DNA from: a virus
Virus record (IMG/VR): IMGVR_UViG_3300024348_000038
Coordinates: 1-59,655 of that record
Direction: 5' to 3' (one strand)
DNA: 59,655 bases
Below the pieces are notes generated by a model that did not search any database, had not been told where the DNA came from, and saw only the letters and a program-made list of their open reading frames with translations. The translations under genes and the position numbers were made by a program. Shown piece by piece: positions 7,486-57,356 of this stretch; within the stretch, counting starts at the first letter, position 1; every line of letters begins with the position of its first letter.

Positions 7486-7755
7486 ATGAAGTACAGAATA
7501 GATGCCAGATACGTTTGGTATAATCGCGGAACTCAAATAGTTCTATTGTACTTTATAAATCAAATACCCTTTACTTTTGACGATCTCCCAAAAGACTCTT
7601 TGTTCGATTTGGAACTGATCAAATTGGCAGATAACGAAAGAAGGTTTGAACCAGAAGACCTTTATCAAGCATCATATTACTTAATGCTTGAAGAATGTCA
7701 TCCTCTCTTATATGAGTTGGAACTGGAAAATCCAGAAATGTTACCTGCCGATTAA
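7486..7755 (+). CDS. Conserved phage protein, unknown
   Basis: 89 residues, acidic C-terminus (LYELELENPEMLPAD), a hydrophobic strand at residues ~15-30 (TQIVLLYFINQIPFTF). SD-like AAAGGAC precedes the ATG. The gene sits between the two tRNAs and its stop is 1 nt from tRNA-Thr. No known domain. Confidence 0.7.
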   Translation: MKYRIDARYVWYNRGTQIVLLYFINQIPFTFDDLPKDSLFDLELIKLADNERRFEPEDLYQASYYLMLEECHPLLYELELENPEMLPAD

Positions 7756-7756
7756 T

Positions 7757-7829
7757 GCCCTTGTAGCTCAGCTGGTAGAGCACCGCTTTTGTAAAGCGGT
7801 TGTCGCAAGTTCAAGTCTTGTCGGGGGCT
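7757..7829 (+). tRNA. tRNA-Thr (anticodon TGT)
   Basis: 73-nt cloverleaf. Acceptor GCCCTTG pairs with CGGGGGC with two G-U pairs. D arm is GCTC AGCTGGTA GAGC. Anticodon stem CCGCT/AGCGG has loop TTTGTAA (TGT). T arm is GCAAG TTCAAGT CTTGT. Discriminator T and no encoded CCA. It reads ACA, an AT-ending codon used often in the fibre genes here. Confidence 0.92.
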
Positions 7830-7849
7830 CTGAGTTCTATAACTCCAAA

Positions 7850-8008
7850 ATGTCACTTATTTCACAAACAGACCGTCAAATGGTCATTGAAGCACTTGAA
7901 TATTATGTTCAAAAACTTAAGGAAGATGACTGCACTCCTGCCTCTATCAGTGCTTTCCAAACCCTCCTCAACTGGATTGAACTGGAGCACTTCAAACATG
8001 AAAATTAA
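7850..8008 (+). CDS. Small helical protein, unknown
   Basis: 52 residues (MSLISQTDRQMVIEALEYYV...). Two amphipathic helices, no recognised family. The ATG is 20 nt after tRNA-Thr and there is no obvious SD. Its end overlaps the next gene by 11 nt, which supports co-translation. A larger reading from 7688 runs through the tRNA and is discarded. Confidence 0.6.
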   Translation: MSLISQTDRQMVIEALEYYVQKLKEDDCTPASISAFQTLLNWIELEHFKHEN

Positions 8009-8171
8009 TTTATGGTATTGCGAATCGATGAAACAATGGCGTTGGATTCTTACTGACGATTCACGTCCTGTTCTCAAACAAGAATCTGGTCAACAACCCC
8101 ATCTTCGTGATGCTATGAATGATGTAGCAAATACAGTAGAATATATGTTGCAATGCAAACAAAGTGAGTAA
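7998..8171 (+). CDS. Small conserved phage protein, unknown
   Basis: 57 residues (MKINLWYCESMKQWRWILTD...). Beta hairpin at the start with two Trp, then a helix with HLRDAMNDVANTVEYM. It resembles small cyanophage proteins that transform short W/Y-rich sheets, but no function is known. Overlaps the preceding gene and is 9 nt from the Mom-like gene. Confidence 0.65.
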   Translation: MKINLWYCESMKQWRWILTDDSRPVLKQESGQQPHLRDAMNDVANTVEYMLQCKQSE

Positions 8172-8180
8172 AAATACTTA

Positions 8181-8804
8181 ATGAAATCAGATTTTTGTAT
8201 AGATAAAGTAGGTAAAAATGAAATCAAAGAACTTCTTTATACCTATCATTATTTAAAAGACGAATCAAAAGATTTTAAATCTGGTTTCAATTATGGGCTT
8301 TTCAGATCCTCGGTTTCTGATATTCTTAGGATTGGTGGTTGCTTGGGTGCTTGTGTCTTTACTGGTTTGCCCGTCCCAGAAATAGCAGTTGGTGCCTTTG
8401 GACTACAGAGACACGAACAAGAAGGAATCTATGAGTTATCAAGACTTTGTATTCATCCAGATGTTCAAAAAGAAGAATACAATATTACATCTTGGTTCGT
8501 TAGTCGTTGTATAAGGAGATTTAGAAAAGATGCCAATGTTCGTTGTATTCTTAGTTATGCTGATGCTAATCACCACCTTGGAACTATATACAGAGCTTGT
8601 AATTTTACTTACTACGGTTTAACCGCACCTAAGAAGGACTTCTACTATGCAGACGGAACCAAACATTCTCGGGGTAGCATTAACGGTGCTGATGGTGAGT
8701 GGAGGGATAGGTCTCGTAAACATCGGTATCTTATGGTATTCGATGAGGGACTCCAAAAAAGGTTGACATGGAAGCAAGAGAAGTGGTATAATAATCAGGT
8801 GTGA
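8181..8804 (+). CDS. Mom-like acyltransferase, putative adenine (carbamoylmethyl-type) DNA modification
   Basis: 207 residues with the layout of the phage Mu Mom family, a GNAT-type fold. There is an early HYLKDE helix, strand GACVFTGLPVPEIAVGAF, the core strand YELSRLCIHPD and helix TSWFVSRCIRRFRKD. Next come strand VRCILSYADANHH and GTIYRACNFTYYGLT, and C-terminal KHRYLMVFD. Mom converts adenine to a bulky N6 derivative that blocks host restriction. The family match is by motif reading. The chemistry here is unknown and cofactor use is an inference. A consensus sigma70 promoter lies inside its last codons (8763-8792). Confidence 0.8.
   Translation: MKSDFCIDKVGKNEIKELLYTYHYLKDESKDFKSGFNYGLFRSSVSDILRIGGCLGACVFTGLPVPEIAVGAFGLQRHEQEGIYELSRLCIHPDVQKEEYNITSWFVSRCIRRFRKDANVRCILSYADANHHLGTIYRACNFTYYGLTAPKKDFYYADGTKHSRGSINGADGEWRDRSRKHRYLMVFDEGLQKRLTWKQEKWYNNQV
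8763..8792 (+). promoter_or_regulatory. Consensus sigma70 promoter inside the 3' end of the Mom-like gene
   Basis: TTGACA at 8763-8768, 18-nt spacer, TATAAT at 8787-8792. The predicted start is near 8799, only ~18 nt before the terminator stem at 8817, so transcripts would be ~50 nt unless they read through. Confidence 0.55.
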
Positions 8805-8848
8805 AGGAAGTGCTAAAAGAGACTGGGAGAAATCTCAGTCTCTTTTTT
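8799..8848 (+). ncRNA. Candidate ~50-nt RNA between promoter 8763 and terminator 8817
   Basis: The segment is bounded by a consensus promoter and a strong intrinsic terminator and contains no ORF of note. It could be a small regulatory RNA, an attenuated leader, or a by-product. Only architecture supports it. Confidence 0.3.
8817..8848 (+). terminator. Strong intrinsic terminator
   Basis: AAGAGACTG (8817-8825) pairs with CAGTCTCTT (8836-8844), extended by GGA/TCT with a GAAA loop, followed by a T-run. It separates the tRNA/Mom unit from the fibre operon. Confidence 0.85.
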
Positions 8849-8853
8849 CTTAT

Positions 8854-8861
8854 GATAAATA
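8854..8861 (+). promoter_or_regulatory. T4-type late promoter GATAAATA
   Basis: The octamer lies 31 nt upstream of the start of the 1999-residue fibre gene, directly after the terminator. Confidence 0.65.
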
Positions 8862-8891
8862 ATCCATAACGGAACTATAAGTATTAATAAG

Positions 8892-11800
8892 ATGGGTCTT
8901 TCACGTCTCGATAATTTTCTGAAATCAACACGCGGAACAATCCTTTATGTAGATCCTGGTAGTTTAGATTCTACAGATAGTGTTGAAAACCAAGGCAATA
9001 GCCTTACTAGACCTTTTAAAACCATCCAGAGAGCACTGATTGAAGCATCAAGATTTTCATATCAGAAAGGGTTAGATAACGATAGATTTAATAAAACTAC
9101 AATCATTCTATATCCTGGAGAACATATTGTAGATAATCGTCCAGGATATATCCCAGACGGCGCAAATAATTTTAGACTTCGCAGTGGTCAATCAGTAAAT
9201 GATTTAGTTCCATTCGAATTAGATACAAATTTTGACTTAACAACCGCAGATAATGTTTTATATAAATTAAATTCAATTCATGGTGGGGTAATTATACCTC
9301 GTGGAACTTCAATCGTTGGTATGGATCTTCGTAAGACTAAGATTCGTCCAAAGTATGTTCCAAATCCAGAAAATGACCGTATTGAAAGGTCTGCTGTTTT
9401 CCGTGTAACTGGTGGATGTTATCTATGGCAGTTTACGATTTTGGACGCTGACCCAAATGGTGTATGCTATAAGGATTATACGACAAACACTTTTGTCCCT
9501 AATTTTTCTCACCATAAATTATCTGGATTTGAATATGCAGATGGTGTAAACAACGTAACTATAAAGGATGACTTTTATCCTGCAGGACTATCCTATGATA
9601 GAACTGATTTGGATATGTACTATGAGAAAGTTGGTATTGCTTATGGACAATCTAGTGGAAGACCTATTGAACCTGATTATCCATCATCCTCTCTTGATAT
9701 TCAACCAGTTGTCGATGAGTACCGCATTGTAGGTTCTCGTGGTGCTGAAGTTGGTATCAGCAGCATTAAGGCAGGAAATGGTGTAGTCTCTAATACTAAC
9801 ATCACAGTTACATTAACTTCAGAGTTACCTGGTTTAAATACAGACACTCCAATTCAAATCAATGGAATTGCATCTCCAGGATATGATGGGCAATATGTAG
9901 TCTATCAAGTTAATAATTCCAAGGAGATTGTCTATCGTACTCAAAATGCTCCCCTAGTTGCTTTACCAATAGCGACTGGAGCAACATTGAATATTGCAGT
10001 TGATACTGTAACTTCAGCGTCACCATACATCTTTAACATTTCGCTACGATCGGTGTATGGCATGTGTGGTCTTCTTGCAGATGGAGACAAAGCAGATGGA
10101 TTTAAGTCAATGGTCGTGGCACAGTTCACGGGTATTGGTCTACAAAAAGACGATAATGCTTTTGTAAAGTATGATTCAACTGCAGGCGTCTATAAGGATT
10201 CTCTATCTTATGTAAATTTACACAGCGATTCTTTAGCAAGATTCAAACCAGAATATGAGAACTTCCATATTAAGGCAACCAACAACTCATTCCTTCAGTT
10301 GGTTTCAATCTTTGCGATTGGATATGCGCAACACTTTGTTTCTGAATCTGGTGGTGACCTTTCTATCACCAACTCGAACTCAAACTTTGGTGCAAAGTCA
10401 TTAGTTGCCTCTGGATTTAGAAAAGAGGCATTCCCAAGAGACGATATTGGATATATTACCCACATCATTCCACCAAAAGAAATTGAAACCACCGAAACAA
10501 GTGTAGAATTTGTTGCGATTGATGTTAGCAAGACTGTAGGAATTGCAAGCACAAATCGTCTTTATCTTTACAATGAAATTAACCAAGACTCTGCACCAAC
10601 TACAGTCATAGATGGTTATCGTTTAGGTGCAAAAGAGAATGATAGATTATTTGTTCAAATTTCTCAAAGTGGTGTAACAACTCAATATTCGGCAAGAATT
10701 GTTATGCCGAATACTCAATATACTGCGTCGGAAACTTCATCACAAAAAATATTTAATGTTGGAAGAAGTGTTGCAGGAATCAATAGTATTACATCAAATA
10801 TTTTTACATTAACTTCATCTCATTCATTACTTGCAGGAGAAACTGTCCGTGTCTTCAGTGAAAATGGACACCTTCCTGATGGATTAAATTCAACTCAAGT
10901 TTATTATTCAATCACAAAAGACATTGATATTACTCTTGGTACTAATCAAATTAAAGTAGCACAATCTTATAATGATGCGATTAGAGATATTCCAATTTCT
11001 ATTAATAATAAAGGTGGTGTTTTAAGCATTGTCAGTAGAGTTTCTGATAAAGCAGCAGGGGAAATCGGACACCCAGTTCAGTGGGATGGTTCGCAGTGGT
11101 ATGTGAACGTTGCAACTGCATCTACAGCGAATAATATCTATTCAACAATTGTTGGTGTTGGAACTGCTGGGTTGGGTGCAGCAACGCCAAGAACCTATAT
11201 TAATAGAAAACCAGATACAAGAAGTCTGATTGATTCCATTTATCGCTTCCGTTATGTTCTTCCAAAAGACTCTGCACTTTCTGCACGTCCACCTTTGGAG
11301 GGGTATGTTATTGAAGAATCTAATAATGTAGTTGGTTCTGGTACTACAGAGATTCAAAAATATTTTGATCCAACAAATACATCTACCTTATCAAATTCAA
11401 CAGAACTTCGTAATCCAAGATTTATTGCAAATGCTTCTTGGTCCTCGAATATTGCAAATATTATTACAGAACTTCCTCACGATTTGATAGTTGGTTCTCA
11501 GGTTGAAATTATTAATGTTAAGAGTTCGAATAATATAACTGGTATTGCAAACTCTGCATTTAATGGAACTTTCACTGTTACTGGAATTAGTAGTGCAAAA
11601 CAGTTTAGTTATTCTTTAACTAATAATCCTGGAACATTTACAAATGATACTTCTGCAAGGGATTCAAATCTTCCTGTTTTCAGAAGAAAGAAATATGCAG
11701 GAACATATCAAGTTTACAGAAGTCAGGAGATTAAAAAATATGTTCCTGGACAACAAGATGGCGTTTATCATTTAATTGTTACTAATTCATCTAGTTCACC

Positions 11801-49871: not shown

Positions 49872-49879
49872 AATAAATA
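49872..49879 (+). promoter_or_regulatory. T4-type late promoter AATAAATA
   Basis: 21 nt upstream of ATG 49901. Confidence 0.65.
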
Positions 49880-49900: not shown

Positions 49901-50314
49901 ATGCTGACATTTAGAGAGTTCTATCAAATCTGTGAAGGGAAGAAACCTGATACTCCTCCGCACGCAGTTCCTGGAACTTACAAGAGAGATGATGAAGGGA
50001 CAATTTCTTATACTCTTCAGAGTTATGATGGTCCATTAGGTAAACCAAAAAAGAAAGAAATTGATAAGTTAGTTGTAAAGCGTAGTGGTGGCAAAGAAGT
50101 CACAAAGAGATTGAAGAAGTTAGCAAAATCCGTTAGAAAGATTGAAGAACAAACGCCTACGATGGAACCCAATCTTTATAGTAAGCAAGTTGCAATGCGT
50201 CAGGCAGCACAAAAGACTGCACAAATCAAACATGTTCATCAAGAATTGGGTGCAGAAGCAAGAACACAACAAGCAGCAAAACAATCTAGACTAAAATCTA
50301 TCATGAGTCGTTAA
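49901..50314 (+). CDS. Putative capsid-targeted internal protein
   Basis: 137 residues. N-terminus MLTFREFYQICEG matches the T4 internal-protein capsid-targeting layout (x-T-F/Y-x-x-F ... E) and ends I-C-E|G, a prohead-protease (L/I)xE site at residue 12. The remainder is basic and helical (KKKEIDKLVVKRSGGKEVTK), as expected for DNA-packaged proteins. Late promoter 22 nt upstream. Function after injection unknown. Confidence 0.7.
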   Translation: MLTFREFYQICEGKKPDTPPHAVPGTYKRDDEGTISYTLQSYDGPLGKPKKKEIDKLVVKRSGGKEVTKRLKKLAKSVRKIEEQTPTMEPNLYSKQVAMRQAAQKTAQIKHVHQELGAEARTQQAAKQSRLKSIMSR

Positions 50315-50316
50315 TT

Positions 50317-50324
50317 TATAAATA
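50317..50324 (+). promoter_or_regulatory. T4-type late promoter TATAAATA
   Basis: Perfect octamer, 20 nt upstream of ATG 50345. Confidence 0.7.
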
Positions 50325-50344
50325 ACTAAAAAGCGTTTGTAAAA

Positions 50345-52432
50345 ATGAATTCTAAGGAATATAGAGAACTAATCGAGGCATATCAAAATGTCTATGAACA
50401 GCAAATTGGTGTTCCTCTAGATAAACCAACTGATGGTGCTGCAGCAAGAAAACTGCAGCAAATGATTCCCAAAGGTGAAAAAGTTTATATTCCTAAGAGT
50501 GGATTGCAAAAGGCACACTATGAACCAGAGGGTGAACAAATAGATGAAATGGGTCCATTGGCAGGATTAGCAGTTAGAGGAGCTCTTGCTGCTGGAACTG
50601 CTCTTGCGGGCAAAGCAGTTTATGATAAAGCAAAGGGAGTTGCTGGTAAATTAAAACAGAGAAATATACAGACACAAAAATCTATTGATAGTCTTCAAAA
50701 TTCATATGAACCAGAAGGCGAAGAATTGAGTGAAAATCCTCTTGCTTCACTTGATAAATTGGCAAGAGGTACTGCACAAACTGTTGGTGGTGTGATTGGT
50801 AGAAACCAAGGACAAAAAACGGGTATTCCCGGTGGAGGAACTGTTGGAGGACTTCTTGGTAGACAAAAAGGTGGAGAAATATATGGTAGAGTGAAGCAAA
50901 CTGTCGGTGGACTCCTCAAACAGTCTTATGAAACAGAGGGTAATTTAGTTGATGAGCAACAAGACCTTTTTGACATTGTAAAAGGTTATCTTATTGACGA
51001 AGGTTATGTATCAACTGAAGAAGAAGCACTCTATATGATGTCAAATATCAGTGAAGAAGCACTGCAAGATATTATTGAAGCAGCAGTGCAACCCAGTTTA
51101 ATTACTTCAAAAGGAAAGGCGCAAAATTTTACTAAACCAAAAAAAATTCCTTTTACTTCTAGCACCCCAGTTCCAACACGTTCAAGAACACAAGCAACAC
51201 CACCAAAGAAACCACCTGGAGGATTTGGTAACAAACCTGCTGGACAATTAAAACTAGATCTCAATAAACCAGCAGCAAAACCTGTTGCAAAACCAGCAGC
51301 AAAACCTGCTGCAACACCTGTTTCAACACGACAAAGATCTCAACAGTTTAGAGATGTTCAAAGATTGAATAGGGCAACTGGTGGTGGTGTGATGGGGACA
51401 ACTAAACCAACAAATCTTGAACCAAGAGCACCAAAACCTGCTTGGAAATCATCAGCAACTGCAGCAAAACCAACAGCAACTGCAGCAAAACCAGTAGCAA
51501 AACCAACAGCAACTGCAGCAAAACCAGTAGCAAAACCAACTAGTACATCAAAACCAACTAGTACATCAAAACCAAATCCATATAGACCTGGTGCTACTGT
51601 TCGTGCAACTGGTCCTAATATGGATAAGTTCCCACAACTTCAGAGATTTGCTAATACGGCAAGAAAATATGCTGAACCAGTGTCTAAAGTTGCTGGAGCA
51701 GTTGCGGCATTGAGAAATATTACTCCTGCTGGCGTTGCTGCTTCAGTTATGGCACCAAAACCTGCTGCAGATGCCACACTTAAGGGTGCATTGAAGAGTG
51801 GTACCTATAAACCAAAACAGGGTCCAGCAAATCCAGACCAAGGATTGTCAAAAACACAATCATTTGATAAAGCATTTGCTGCTGCTCGTAAATCAGGTAA
51901 GTCTGGATTTACTTGGAATAATAAAACATACACTACAAAAGTAAAAGAATCGGTCGATGATTTTGAACTGATTCAGGATTATTTGATTTCTGAAGGTTAT
52001 GCTGATAATGAAAAAGAAGCACTGATGATTATGGCAAATATCAGTGCAGAGCAAATACAAGAAATCAAGGAAGATTTAGAAGAAAGAAGAAAGCAACTTG
52101 CACAAAGACAAAAACATCAAGTGACCGCATCACAAGAGCGTGTTGTATCTCATCAACAAGCAAGAAAAAATAAGCGTCAAAAAGCAAAAGAGAGAGAACA
52201 AATTAAAGATGAATTGAGAAAAGAGATGCGTCGTGAAGCAGTTGGAGACCCAATCAATCCAAACAGTGTATTTAAGTTGAGCGACCCAGTTCATCAAAAG
52301 AACATTAAATCTGCTGCTACACCTGCTGGACCTCCTCCCATGAAACCAGCAGCACCAAAACCAAAACAACAATCATCTTCGGATAGATTTGTGAAAAGAA
52401 TGGTAGGAAGCACTATGCTTTCCCCACTCTGA
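50345..52432 (+). CDS. Large putative internal (injected) virion protein
   Basis: 695 residues. N-terminus MNSKEYRELIEAYQ has a cleavage-like LIE|A at residue 11. Three short repeats H/SYEPEGEQI, SYEPEGEEL, SYETEGNLV occur at residues ~59, ~119, ~196. Two copies of a ~35-residue helical module (IVKGYLIDEGYVSTEEEALY and LIQDYLISEGYADNEKEALM) lie at ~210 and ~540. The middle is Ala/Lys/Pro-rich low complexity (residues ~310-420). The C-terminus is basic. Virion cores of marine T4-like phages have such proteins. Enzymatic domain not seen. Late promoter upstream. Confidence 0.7.
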   Translation: MNSKEYRELIEAYQNVYEQQIGVPLDKPTDGAAARKLQQMIPKGEKVYIPKSGLQKAHYEPEGEQIDEMGPLAGLAVRGALAAGTALAGKAVYDKAKGVAGKLKQRNIQTQKSIDSLQNSYEPEGEELSENPLASLDKLARGTAQTVGGVIGRNQGQKTGIPGGGTVGGLLGRQKGGEIYGRVKQTVGGLLKQSYETEGNLVDEQQDLFDIVKGYLIDEGYVSTEEEALYMMSNISEEALQDIIEAAVQPSLITSKGKAQNFTKPKKIPFTSSTPVPTRSRTQATPPKKPPGGFGNKPAGQLKLDLNKPAAKPVAKPAAKPAATPVSTRQRSQQFRDVQRLNRATGGGVMGTTKPTNLEPRAPKPAWKSSATAAKPTATAAKPVAKPTATAAKPVAKPTSTSKPTSTSKPNPYRPGATVRATGPNMDKFPQLQRFANTARKYAEPVSKVAGAVAALRNITPAGVAASVMAPKPAADATLKGALKSGTYKPKQGPANPDQGLSKTQSFDKAFAAARKSGKSGFTWNNKTYTTKVKESVDDFELIQDYLISEGYADNEKEALMIMANISAEQIQEIKEDLEERRKQLAQRQKHQVTASQERVVSHQQARKNKRQKAKEREQIKDELRKEMRREAVGDPINPNSVFKLSDPVHQKNIKSAATPAGPPPMKPAAPKPKQQSSSDRFVKRMVGSTMLSPL
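51461..51575 (+). repeat. Tandem (ATAAKPVAKPT)-type coding repeats
   Basis: Repeats of 'GCAACTGCAGCAAAACCA' and 'ACTAGTACATCAAAACCA' encode a disordered Ala/Lys/Pro linker of the 695-residue protein. Confidence 0.8.
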
Positions 52433-52469
52433 ATTAAAGTTACTCACCTCTAAAGTGTTCTAGTAATGT
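52433..52469 (+). repeat. 37-nt repeat, copy 2 of 7
   Basis: ATTAAAGTTACTCACCT then CTAAAGTGTTCTAGTAATGT. Begins right at the stop of the 695-residue gene. Confidence 0.9.
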
Positions 52470-52487
52470 AGGCAACTGATTCTAACA

Positions 52488-52625
52488 ATGGATCATTTTG
52501 ATGACATTCAAGTTGAAGACTTCTCTTCTTTTGATTTTGTTGAAGAGATGAATGAAGGTCTCTTTGAGGAAGAAGAGAATGATAAGTCTTTTGATTCTTT
52601 TCTGAAGTCTAATTGGGACTTCTGA
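52488..52625 (+). CDS. Small acidic protein
   Basis: 45 residues (MDHFDDIQVEDFSSFDFVEE...), strongly acidic. Could be a DNA-mimic or a regulator (inference). 18 nt downstream of repeat copy 2. No SD. Confidence 0.55.
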   Translation: MDHFDDIQVEDFSSFDFVEEMNEGLFEEEENDKSFDSFLKSNWDF

Positions 52626-52685
52626 CAGTTCTCAAACTGTCCACTCAACCCCACACACTGAACACTTTTCCTTTAACATACTCAA

Positions 52686-52886
52686 ATGACTGAACAAATT
52701 CCTAACGTGCTTGTCCACATCAATGAACTTAAAGAGACTTGGAGGCGTCAGGATTTCACCTTTAGTAAGCAACAGCAAGAAGAGTATGATTTGCTTCTTG
52801 CTACTCGTCGTGAGCGTGTGAAGCAATTCTATGCTGAAGGTCGAGTATTCAAGGGTGCATATAAAGCGAAGGAAGAAGACTTCTAA
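52686..52886 (+). CDS. Small helical charged protein
   Basis: 66 residues (MTEQIPNVLVHINELKETWR...). KQQQEEYDLLLATRRERVKQF helix. No SD visible before ATG. Its stop is followed by TCTAAATA (52884-52891). Confidence 0.6.
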   Translation: MTEQIPNVLVHINELKETWRRQDFTFSKQQQEEYDLLLATRRERVKQFYAEGRVFKGAYKAKEEDF

Positions 52887-52891
52887 ATACT
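52884..52891 (+). promoter_or_regulatory. Late-promoter-like octamer TCTAAATA
   Basis: 24 nt upstream of ATG 52916, the third capsid-targeted gene. One mismatch from NATAAATA. Confidence 0.4.
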
Positions 52892-52915
52892 AAAAAGTAG
52901 TGTTTAGATAGAACA

Positions 52916-53593
52916 ATGCGCACATTTCAACAGTTTATGTCTCTTTGTGAAGCATCTGATGCCGATGCTGCTAGTCAACTTGGTTGGGGTGGTGGTGCTT
53001 CCATCATCAAAACTGGTGCTGGCGGTAGAATAGGTAAAGAGCGCAAAAAGACTCCTGTTGAAATTCGCAGAGTAAGAGCAGTTGGTGGTGGAAGAACCGA
53101 ACCTGCTGGACCATATAAAACACGCAAAGATGTTGGTCAGCAAAGAGGTTCTTCAGCACCTGCGCCTGGAAGAGGTCAAGGTGCAACAGAACTGAAACCA
53201 GGAACTGCAGGAACTCAAGGAAGTGCTGCAATGTCTGCTAAAGAAAGGCAGCGTAAAGCATATCTTGAGCGTAAAGCAAAAGAAGGTGGTAAAGAGCAAC
53301 CAAAGACTGCATCACAAGCAATCTCTCAAGCAAAACCACAACAAGAGAAGAAACCTGAAGCAGCAGCACCACGCAGACAGTGGAAAACTGAAACTGGTGC
53401 TCCTATGACAAGAGCAGAAAGAGATGCTGCAAGAAATAAAGAGAAAACTACAAAGGCGCAAGAAACTAAGAAATCTGCTACAGAGATTCTTGCACAAATG
53501 CGCAGAGAATACGAAGAGAAAGGTGGAAAGTGGAATAGTAAAGTTGCTGTTCAAATGAGAGCAAAAGCAAAAGCAGCAGCACAAGCATCTTGA
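52916..53593 (+). CDS. Putative capsid-targeted internal protein
   Basis: 225 residues. N-terminus MRTFQQFMSLCEASD closely resembles the T4 internal-protein leader MKTYQEFIAE|A; cleavage would be after L-C-E at residue 12. The rest is low-complexity Ala/Lys/Gly/Pro (QRGSSAPAPGRGQGATELK), highly basic and helical at the end, typical of disordered DNA-binding packaged proteins. Confidence 0.75.
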   Translation: MRTFQQFMSLCEASDADAASQLGWGGGASIIKTGAGGRIGKERKKTPVEIRRVRAVGGGRTEPAGPYKTRKDVGQQRGSSAPAPGRGQGATELKPGTAGTQGSAAMSAKERQRKAYLERKAKEGGKEQPKTASQAISQAKPQQEKKPEAAAPRRQWKTETGAPMTRAERDAARNKEKTTKAQETKKSATEILAQMRREYEEKGGKWNSKVAVQMRAKAKAAAQAS

Positions 53594-56400: not shown

Positions 56401-56437
56401 ATTAAAGTTACTCACCTCCAAAGTGTCCTAGTAGTAT
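56401..56437 (+). repeat. 37-nt repeat, copy 5 of 7
   Basis: Identical in sequence to copy 4. The final ATG overlaps the start of the gene at 56436. Confidence 0.9.
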
Positions 56438-57356
56438 GAGCAAGCAACCAATGCAAAACAAGCACCTCGAACACCCCGAAGATGTCATCCTTAATGGTGA
56501 TCTTTCGGTGCTCGATTGGTTCAGTGCTGATTCTACTATCAGTGTCAAGATGGATGGTGCTCCTGCTATTGTATGGGGCACAAATCCTGAGAATGGTAAG
56601 TTTTTTGTCTGCACGAAAGCAGCATTTAACAAGCAAAAGATTCGTCTTTGCTACAACCAGGATGACATTTTTGCACACTTTGGACATCAACCAAGTGTAA
56701 CTCAAATCCTTACCTTCTGCCTGGATTTCCTGCCCCGCACTAACAATGTGTATCAGGGGGATTGGATTGGTTTCGGAAAGGGTCTTGATACATTCAAACC
56801 CAATACGATTACCTATCGCTTCCCTGAGATTGTGCGTCAGGAGATTATCATTTGTCCTCACACTTACTACACTGGTGAGCGTCTACCTGAAATGGTAGCA
56901 CACCCTATCACCAGCAAGTTTGCAAGCACTAAGAAATGCTTGTTTGTGCAACCTGCAGTGTCCCTGAATCCTTATCGTGAAGATTTGGAGGATGTGTGTA
57001 AGTTTGCCAAGCAAATGAGCACTTTATGTGAGTTTGTGAGTGACCGCAAGGCATCACAAATCAAAAAAGAGATAAATGCCTGCATCCGTGAGGAAAGAGT
57101 CGTTGATGAAGATGAAATTGCAGAAAAATGTGATTGTGATAAGAACCTCATCCGTTTGTGGAAATTGGTGAAGACTATCAAGGATGATTTGTTCATGTTT
57201 ATTCATGAAGAGGATGAGATTGAATGTGAACTCTGGGGAGTGTCAAGTTTCCACGAAGGTTATGTCATCCACAATGATTATGGCATCTTCAAAGTAATTG
57301 ACCGTGAAGTATTCTCTCACGCCAACTTTACGATTGAAAAAAACTGGGTTAAGTAG
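56436..57356 (+). CDS. Ligase-like nucleotidyltransferase (DUF6267-type)
   Basis: 306 residues. KMDGAPAIVWG with K38 is the motif I (KxDG) lysine of covalent nucleotidyltransferases; ENGKFFVCTKAAFNK follows as in DUF6267 proteins. HEGYVI with E274 and FKVIDRE with K286 look like motifs IV and V. So the fold is that of RNA/DNA ligases or capping enzymes, but the C-terminal OB domain is missing. Substrate unknown. Start may be ATG 56436 or 56451. Confidence 0.75.
   Translation: MSKQPMQNKHLEHPEDVILNGDLSVLDWFSADSTISVKMDGAPAIVWGTNPENGKFFVCTKAAFNKQKIRLCYNQDDIFAHFGHQPSVTQILTFCLDFLPRTNNVYQGDWIGFGKGLDTFKPNTITYRFPEIVRQEIIICPHTYYTGERLPEMVAHPITSKFASTKKCLFVQPAVSLNPYREDLEDVCKFAKQMSTLCEFVSDRKASQIKKEINACIREERVVDEDEIAEKCDCDKNLIRLWKLVKTIKDDLFMFIHEEDEIECELWGVSSFHEGYVIHNDYGIFKVIDREVFSHANFTIEKNWVK

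Follow-up and report, generated by a model that had tools for sequence, protein, structure and literature searches.

A putative T4-type capsid-targeting leader on two basic, late-type proteins of a cyanophage fragment

The DNA analysed here, IMG/VR virus record IMGVR_UViG_3300024348_000038 (the window; 59,655 bases, spanning the whole record), represents part of a T4-like cyanophage genome and is matched best, at the nucleotide level, by myoviruses of Synechococcus and Prochlorococcus. Two of its genes, named q1 and q3 here (Table 1), carry what sequence comparison well supports as a T4-type capsid-targeting leader with a prohead-protease site. With a probability of roughly 0.78, we consider q1 and q3 to be basic, largely disordered late internal head proteins which are targeted by this leader, cut by gp21, packaged with the DNA and probably ejected. 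This reading is supported by sequence and by published proteomes, namely by the conservation and modularity of the leader, the late-type promoters, the presence of leader-bearing proteins of relatives in virions and the gp23 junction. A third gene, q2, which the initial annotation had placed in the same group, has a different N-terminal class.

The initial annotation had described three basic proteins with an (L/I)-x-E site at residue 11-12 behind late or late-like octamers at 49872, 50317 and 52884, and this description stands: the three open reading frames and the octamers are present, the sites read QICE12/G in q1, ELIE11/A in q2 and SLCE12/A in q3 (a slash marks the predicted cut), and the isoelectric points (pI) after the site are 10.1, 9.9 and 10.5, respectively. 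The bodies of q1 and q3 have net charges of +15 and +25 and contain few order-promoting residues. Among the 95 gene models of the window used for chance estimates, four have [LI]xE[AGS] with the Glu at residues 9-15, compared to 1.1 expected from shuffled N-termini (P = 0.023). When a TAAATA within 45 nt is additionally required, three genes remain, which are q1, q2 and q3 (0.29 expected, P = 0.002). The leader form common to q1 and q3 is M-x-T-F-x-x-F-x-x-[LI]-C-E/[AG], and the fuller pattern M[KRLI][TS][FYL]xxF...[LI]xE[AGS], found in both, occurred twice in none of 5,000 shuffles. A TAAATA lies at most 50 nt upstream in 19 of the 24 q1 homologs and 34 of the 36 q3 homologs.

Conservation of the leader is strict in both families, with M1, F4, F7 and E12 invariant in 36 homologs of q3, and F4, F7, I10, C11 and E12 invariant in 24 homologs of q1; residue 10 is L, I, F or V across the q3 homologs and always I in those of q1. 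The closest long relative among those compared is the IMG/VR contig G001 (222,563 bases), with 93% identity in q3. Synonymous changes are found at the invariant positions, where Phe and Glu are each encoded by either of their two codons, and since the codons of Phe4, Phe7 and Glu vary while the residues do not, selection appears to act on the protein. The q3 orthologs of S-SM2 (MKTLGQFLAE/A) and S-B05 (MKTLRDFLSE/A) have Leu at position 4 and a leader which is two residues shorter but keeps the Glu, thus tying the 12-residue form to the form of T4 length. The S-SM2 ortholog, SSM2_065 (YP_004322221), is annotated as a hypothetical protein; it is homologous over 59% of q3 and is located immediately upstream of a shared neighbourhood that contains a helicase.

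Structure prediction, which had been proposed as a check, modelled a helix at residues 4-11 of the q1 leader; the models of q1 (predicted local distance difference test, pLDDT, 74; predicted template modelling score, pTM, 0.31) and of the mostly disordered q3 (pLDDT 66, pTM 0.27) do not have the quality needed to search by fold. PHROGs, Pfam and PADLOC yielded only weak matches to q1, q2 and q3, and tblastn of q1 against named phages gave no match.

Table 1. Coordinates of the three genes and their upstream and leader elements in the window
Feature	Positions	Strand	Length or property	Basis
q1 (gene 49901)	49901-50314	+	137 aa	
q1 late octamer, T4-type, AATAAATA	49872..49879	+		sequence
q1 leader MLTFREFYQICE	49901..49936	+	12 codons, predicted cut after Glu12	homolog conservation, model helix
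q1 predicted mature body	49937..50314	+	125 aa, pI 10.1	C-terminal half behind other leaders in relatives
q2 (gene 50345)	50345-52432	+	695 aa, repetitive, basic, N-terminus MNSKEYRELIEAYQNVY of other class	
q2 late octamer TATAAATA	50317..50324	+	exact T4 late consensus	sequence
q3 (gene 52916)	52916-53593	+	225 aa	
q3 late-type CTAAATA	52883..52889	+	TAAATA core at 52884	sequence
q3 leader MRTFQQFMSLCE	52916..52951	+	12 codons, predicted cut after Glu12	homolog conservation
q3 predicted mature body	52952..53593	+	213 aa, pI 10.5	mostly disordered in model

Capsid targeting sequences have been described for T4 and phages close to it, and in T4 ten residues of the internal protein IPIII suffice for packaging; positions 4 and 7 have the largest effect on targeting, positions 8 and 10 affect processing, and an Asp at position 10 blocks processing while leaving targeting intact (PMC9026906). 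The leaders of q1 and q3 share with those of T4 IPI, IPII and IPIII an aromatic residue at position 4 and Phe7, followed by the (L/I)xE site, and in both systems the bodies are basic (pI 9.0-9.7 in the T4 proteins) and diverse behind a conserved leader. In contrast to T4, the q1 and q3 leader comprises 12 residues with the Glu at position 12, the bodies are unrelated to any T4 internal protein, and an octamer of the TAAATA type is located directly upstream, whereas the three T4 genes have none within 45 nt.

That the leader occurs independently of what follows it could be seen from a DNA pattern for MK[TS]FxxF(hydrophobic)xEA, which matched at least 120 stretches in IMG/VR. The counts given here refer to a sample, the matches listed, in which homologous sequences are not independent, and a true N-terminus was defined by an in-frame stop within 25 codons upstream. 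Among the matches listed, the 10-residue leader stood at a true N-terminus in 115 of 117 distinct open reading frames, 68 of the 117 had a late octamer, and the bodies fell into 43 clusters without detectable mutual similarity. A control pattern with Ala at positions 4 and 7, although it allowed more codon choices, matched 20 stretches in the whole collection, with 2 of 14 reading frames N-terminal and none of the 14 behind a late octamer. For the 12-residue form ending in CEA, the matches listed comprised 67 reading frames with four bodies (66 N-terminal, 65 with late octamers). In addition, the C-terminal half of q1 is found in relatives in a 63-residue protein behind MKTFQQFM and in a longer protein behind MKTFTQFSED. 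As judged from these sequences, the leader is separable from the body and constitutes a putative swappable packaging module. Recognisable cargos include a cytidylyltransferase, DUF6267, a DPBB lytic transglycolase, a glucosaminidase and a GNAT acetyltransferase, as well as a SAM lyase and a kinase-like protein in S-CREM2. GIY-YIG homing endonucleases (MNNYYTYAYLRE), which matched a loose form of the expression, were discarded as false positives.

Several further observations concern the cargos. A small protein of S-CRM01 (139045-139440 of its record) with the leader MKTFDEFLTE/G is GNAT-like (GKGMGKRF motif) and matches the GNAT cargo of stretch L057. The DUF6267 family provides a natural pair, being leaderless in the window (56436-57356) and preceded by the leader MKSFKSFITE/A in L237:4695-5942. 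A short, conserved segment resembling LGL.SDGHGGWYD..GEFVAKT follows the leader in the otherwise different ORF12 and ORF14 (L189) of S-CREM2, in the T4-GC190 proteins and in L328, and may serve as an additional element for packaging or folding.

The possibility that q1 and q3 are packaged by the leader but act within the head only, as partners of the scaffold core or as basic proteins neutralising DNA, has a chance slightly below even: their bodies are strongly basic and poor in order-promoting residues, the model of q3 shows mostly disorder, and T4 IPIII affects head assembly (PMC9026906). On the other hand, the bodies are diverse and modular like the T4 set, in which IPI is injected and inhibits restriction (PMC3012670), and other cargos of the leader are enzymes. 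On this evidence, it is about equally likely that q1 and q3 serve only the head or the DNA and that they act on the host.

Leader-bearing proteins could be compared with published virion proteomes of related phages. For S-CREM2, the published proteome (PMC10665884) gives 52 proteins detected in virions. The 10-residue motif matches exactly five S-CREM2 reading frames, encoding the SAM hydrolase, ORF13, the APH/ChoK-like kinase, ORF136 and the cytidylyltransferase, and all five are on the virion list; compared to 52 of 219 genes detected overall, the chance of this is, by our own arithmetic, about 6 in 10,000. The leaders of the SAM hydrolase (MKDFDSFLEE) and the kinase (VKRFDAFLTE) are alike in type to those of q1 and q3, whereas the enzyme bodies are unrelated to them. 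ORF12, which is on the same list, contains LRFASFMAE/AA at residues 17-25 of the annotated protein. Another S-CREM2 virion protein (7704-10313 of the record, L189) is annotated as Cas9, a doubtful name since no Pfam match was found at E 0.01.

The motif was then frozen for the other proteomes. In S-SM1, its one annotated match is the virion-detected cytidylyltransferase (a second match, antisense within gp17 and without an annotated gene, was set aside). Of two matches in S-SCSM1, the NMNAT is listed among the virion proteins, unlike SSCSM1_30; the single match in S-SZBM1, SSZBM1_191, belongs to the SSCSM1_30 family and is off the virion list, and the virion-detected cytidylyltransferase of this phage has the near-match leader MRFRQFIIE/A. 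Of six leader families, five were detected in virions. The cytidylyltransferase/NMNAT proteins (T4-GC190), found in virions of S-SM1, S-SCSM1 and S-CREM2, share the leader type (MKKFSAFLNE/A, MKSFLQFLKE/A) with q1 and q3 and differ from them in their enzyme body and 10-residue leader. In T4, taken as a control, the motif recovers the known internal proteins ipII and ipIII as well as 61.1 and misses ipI, in which the site lies farther in.

These results also bear on a rather improbable explanation, according to which the leader is some other N-terminal element of late genes, acting on translation or regulation, and the virion detections are due to contamination by abundant late proteins. Leader genes are indeed mostly of the late type, and the proteome authors describe virion-associated enzymes as possible cargo or contamination. 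This explanation is at odds with the constancy of Phe4, Phe7 and Glu at the level of residues rather than codons, with the role of these residues in T4, where they direct both targeting and processing (PMC9026906), and with the detection of all five S-CREM2 motif matches against the much lower overall rate.

On the protease side, gp21 is encoded in relatives. The junctions of its known substrate gp23, the major capsid protein, in cyanophages (ILTE/T, ILTE/A, MLNE/V, MIAE/Q, FLAE/A, LLTE/A, MLTE/S and MLME/S) are of the [LIM]xE type and align with FLTE/A of T4, an alignment from which we read them as probable cleavage sites. S-SM2 SSM2_108 (91376-91804 of its record; in L188) and L336 from 3696 (+) contain a packaging-type leader followed by a sequence like the N-terminal arm of mature gp23 (71% over 31 residues for SSM2_108), which looks as though a copy of the gp23 junction had been placed after a leader.

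There are however several points which weigh against the interpretation of q1 and q3 as packaged head proteins. The Glu is located at residue 12, compared to 10 in T4 ipII and ipIII; the residue after the site is Glu in 8 and Lys in 2 of the 36 q3 homologs, unlike the usual small residue; and some short q1 relatives (MKTFQQFMEQ) have Phe4 and Phe7 but no canonical site. The window, being a fragment, contains neither gp21 nor gp23, so that neither can be read there. Three positions of the motif had been relaxed once the S-CREM2 list was known and before the motif was frozen, the virion support comes from other leader-bearing proteins and not from q1, q3 or their orthologs, and virion detection may include contaminants, as the proteome authors point out. 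Finally, the SSCSM1_30/SSZBM1_191 family went undetected in both proteomes of phages which have it; perhaps it is degraded during head maturation, or is not packaged. This family of about 105 aa, which includes G001:4814-5134, is conserved as MK[ST]FK[QS]F[ILM]SE/SVNISGDFNGNLY, and SSCSM1_30 and SSZBM1_191 adjoin the terminase genes of their phages.

The likeness to T4 internal proteins and the capsid-targeting leader with its protease site, both claimed by the initial annotation for all three genes, are retained for q1 and q3 and withdrawn for q2. The N-terminus of q2, MNSKEYR, has Lys4 and Arg7 in place of the aromatic residue and Phe7, and LIE reads LIQ in the two closest homologs (L045 and L088); because of these two features its membership in the leader group is not supported, and q2 was rejected as a third capsid-targeting protein. 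We consider it possible, though somewhat doubtful, that q2 is nevertheless packaged through its own N-terminal class, [LIM]x[EQ]AYxxV, and that it is cleaved at several (L/I)xE sites inside the chain. The slightly broader form [LIM]x[EQ]A[YC]xxV is found on 21 distinct proteins, every one with a late octamer, q2 contains 10 [LI]xE sites compared to 4.3 expected (P = 0.01), and the S-SCSM1 virion protein SSCSM1_92 starts with LNDISKVYMEKVA, a loose resemblance to the q2 class judged by eye only. Apart from the lack of Phe4, Phe7 and a conserved Glu, the idea is weakened by the fact that conservation of q2 continues beyond the would-be cut and that several of its [LI]xE sites fall within a repeated domain. 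This domain, LI.EGY....EEAL..M.NIS.E, is present in two copies, and q2 also contains long AKP/ATAAKP repeats; a match of q2 to phrog_1801 'tail fiber' (E 0.0036) falls on the repeated LI.EGY part and was rejected as an indication of function. Genes related to q2 occur in tandem in L090 and L092.

Taken as packaged head proteins, q1 and q3 would be expressed late in infection from T4-type late promoters. Their leader would form a short helix whose Phe4 and Phe7 bind the prohead core. As the head matures, a gp21-type prohead protease would cut after Glu12, leaving a basic, mostly disordered mature chain that would remain beside the packaged DNA within the head and probably be ejected along with it. 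Core binding, the cleavage of q1 and q3, their presence in the virion, ejection and any host target are steps which we infer.

In a literature search covering few subscription papers and no supplementary tables, no cyanophage paper on capsid targeting was found, and the two subjects occurred together in a T4 review only; the accessible parts of the cyanophage proteome papers mention no leader. A leader matching the T4 packaging determinants on virion enzymes offers a simple and testable answer to the question of cargo or contamination, and allows a group of genes so far lacking annotation to be predicted as encoding packaged proteins. We see an even chance that T4-like cyanophages use one short, swappable N-terminal tag to load a large and varied head cargo, including a nucleotidyltransferase, a SAM lyase, a kinase-like protein, an acetyltransferase, a glucosaminidase and the basic q1 and q3, and to deliver it with the DNA into the cyanobacterial cell, the packaged set being readable from the genome. 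If true, the proteins that a cyanophage carries into its host at the very start of infection could be listed from its genome.

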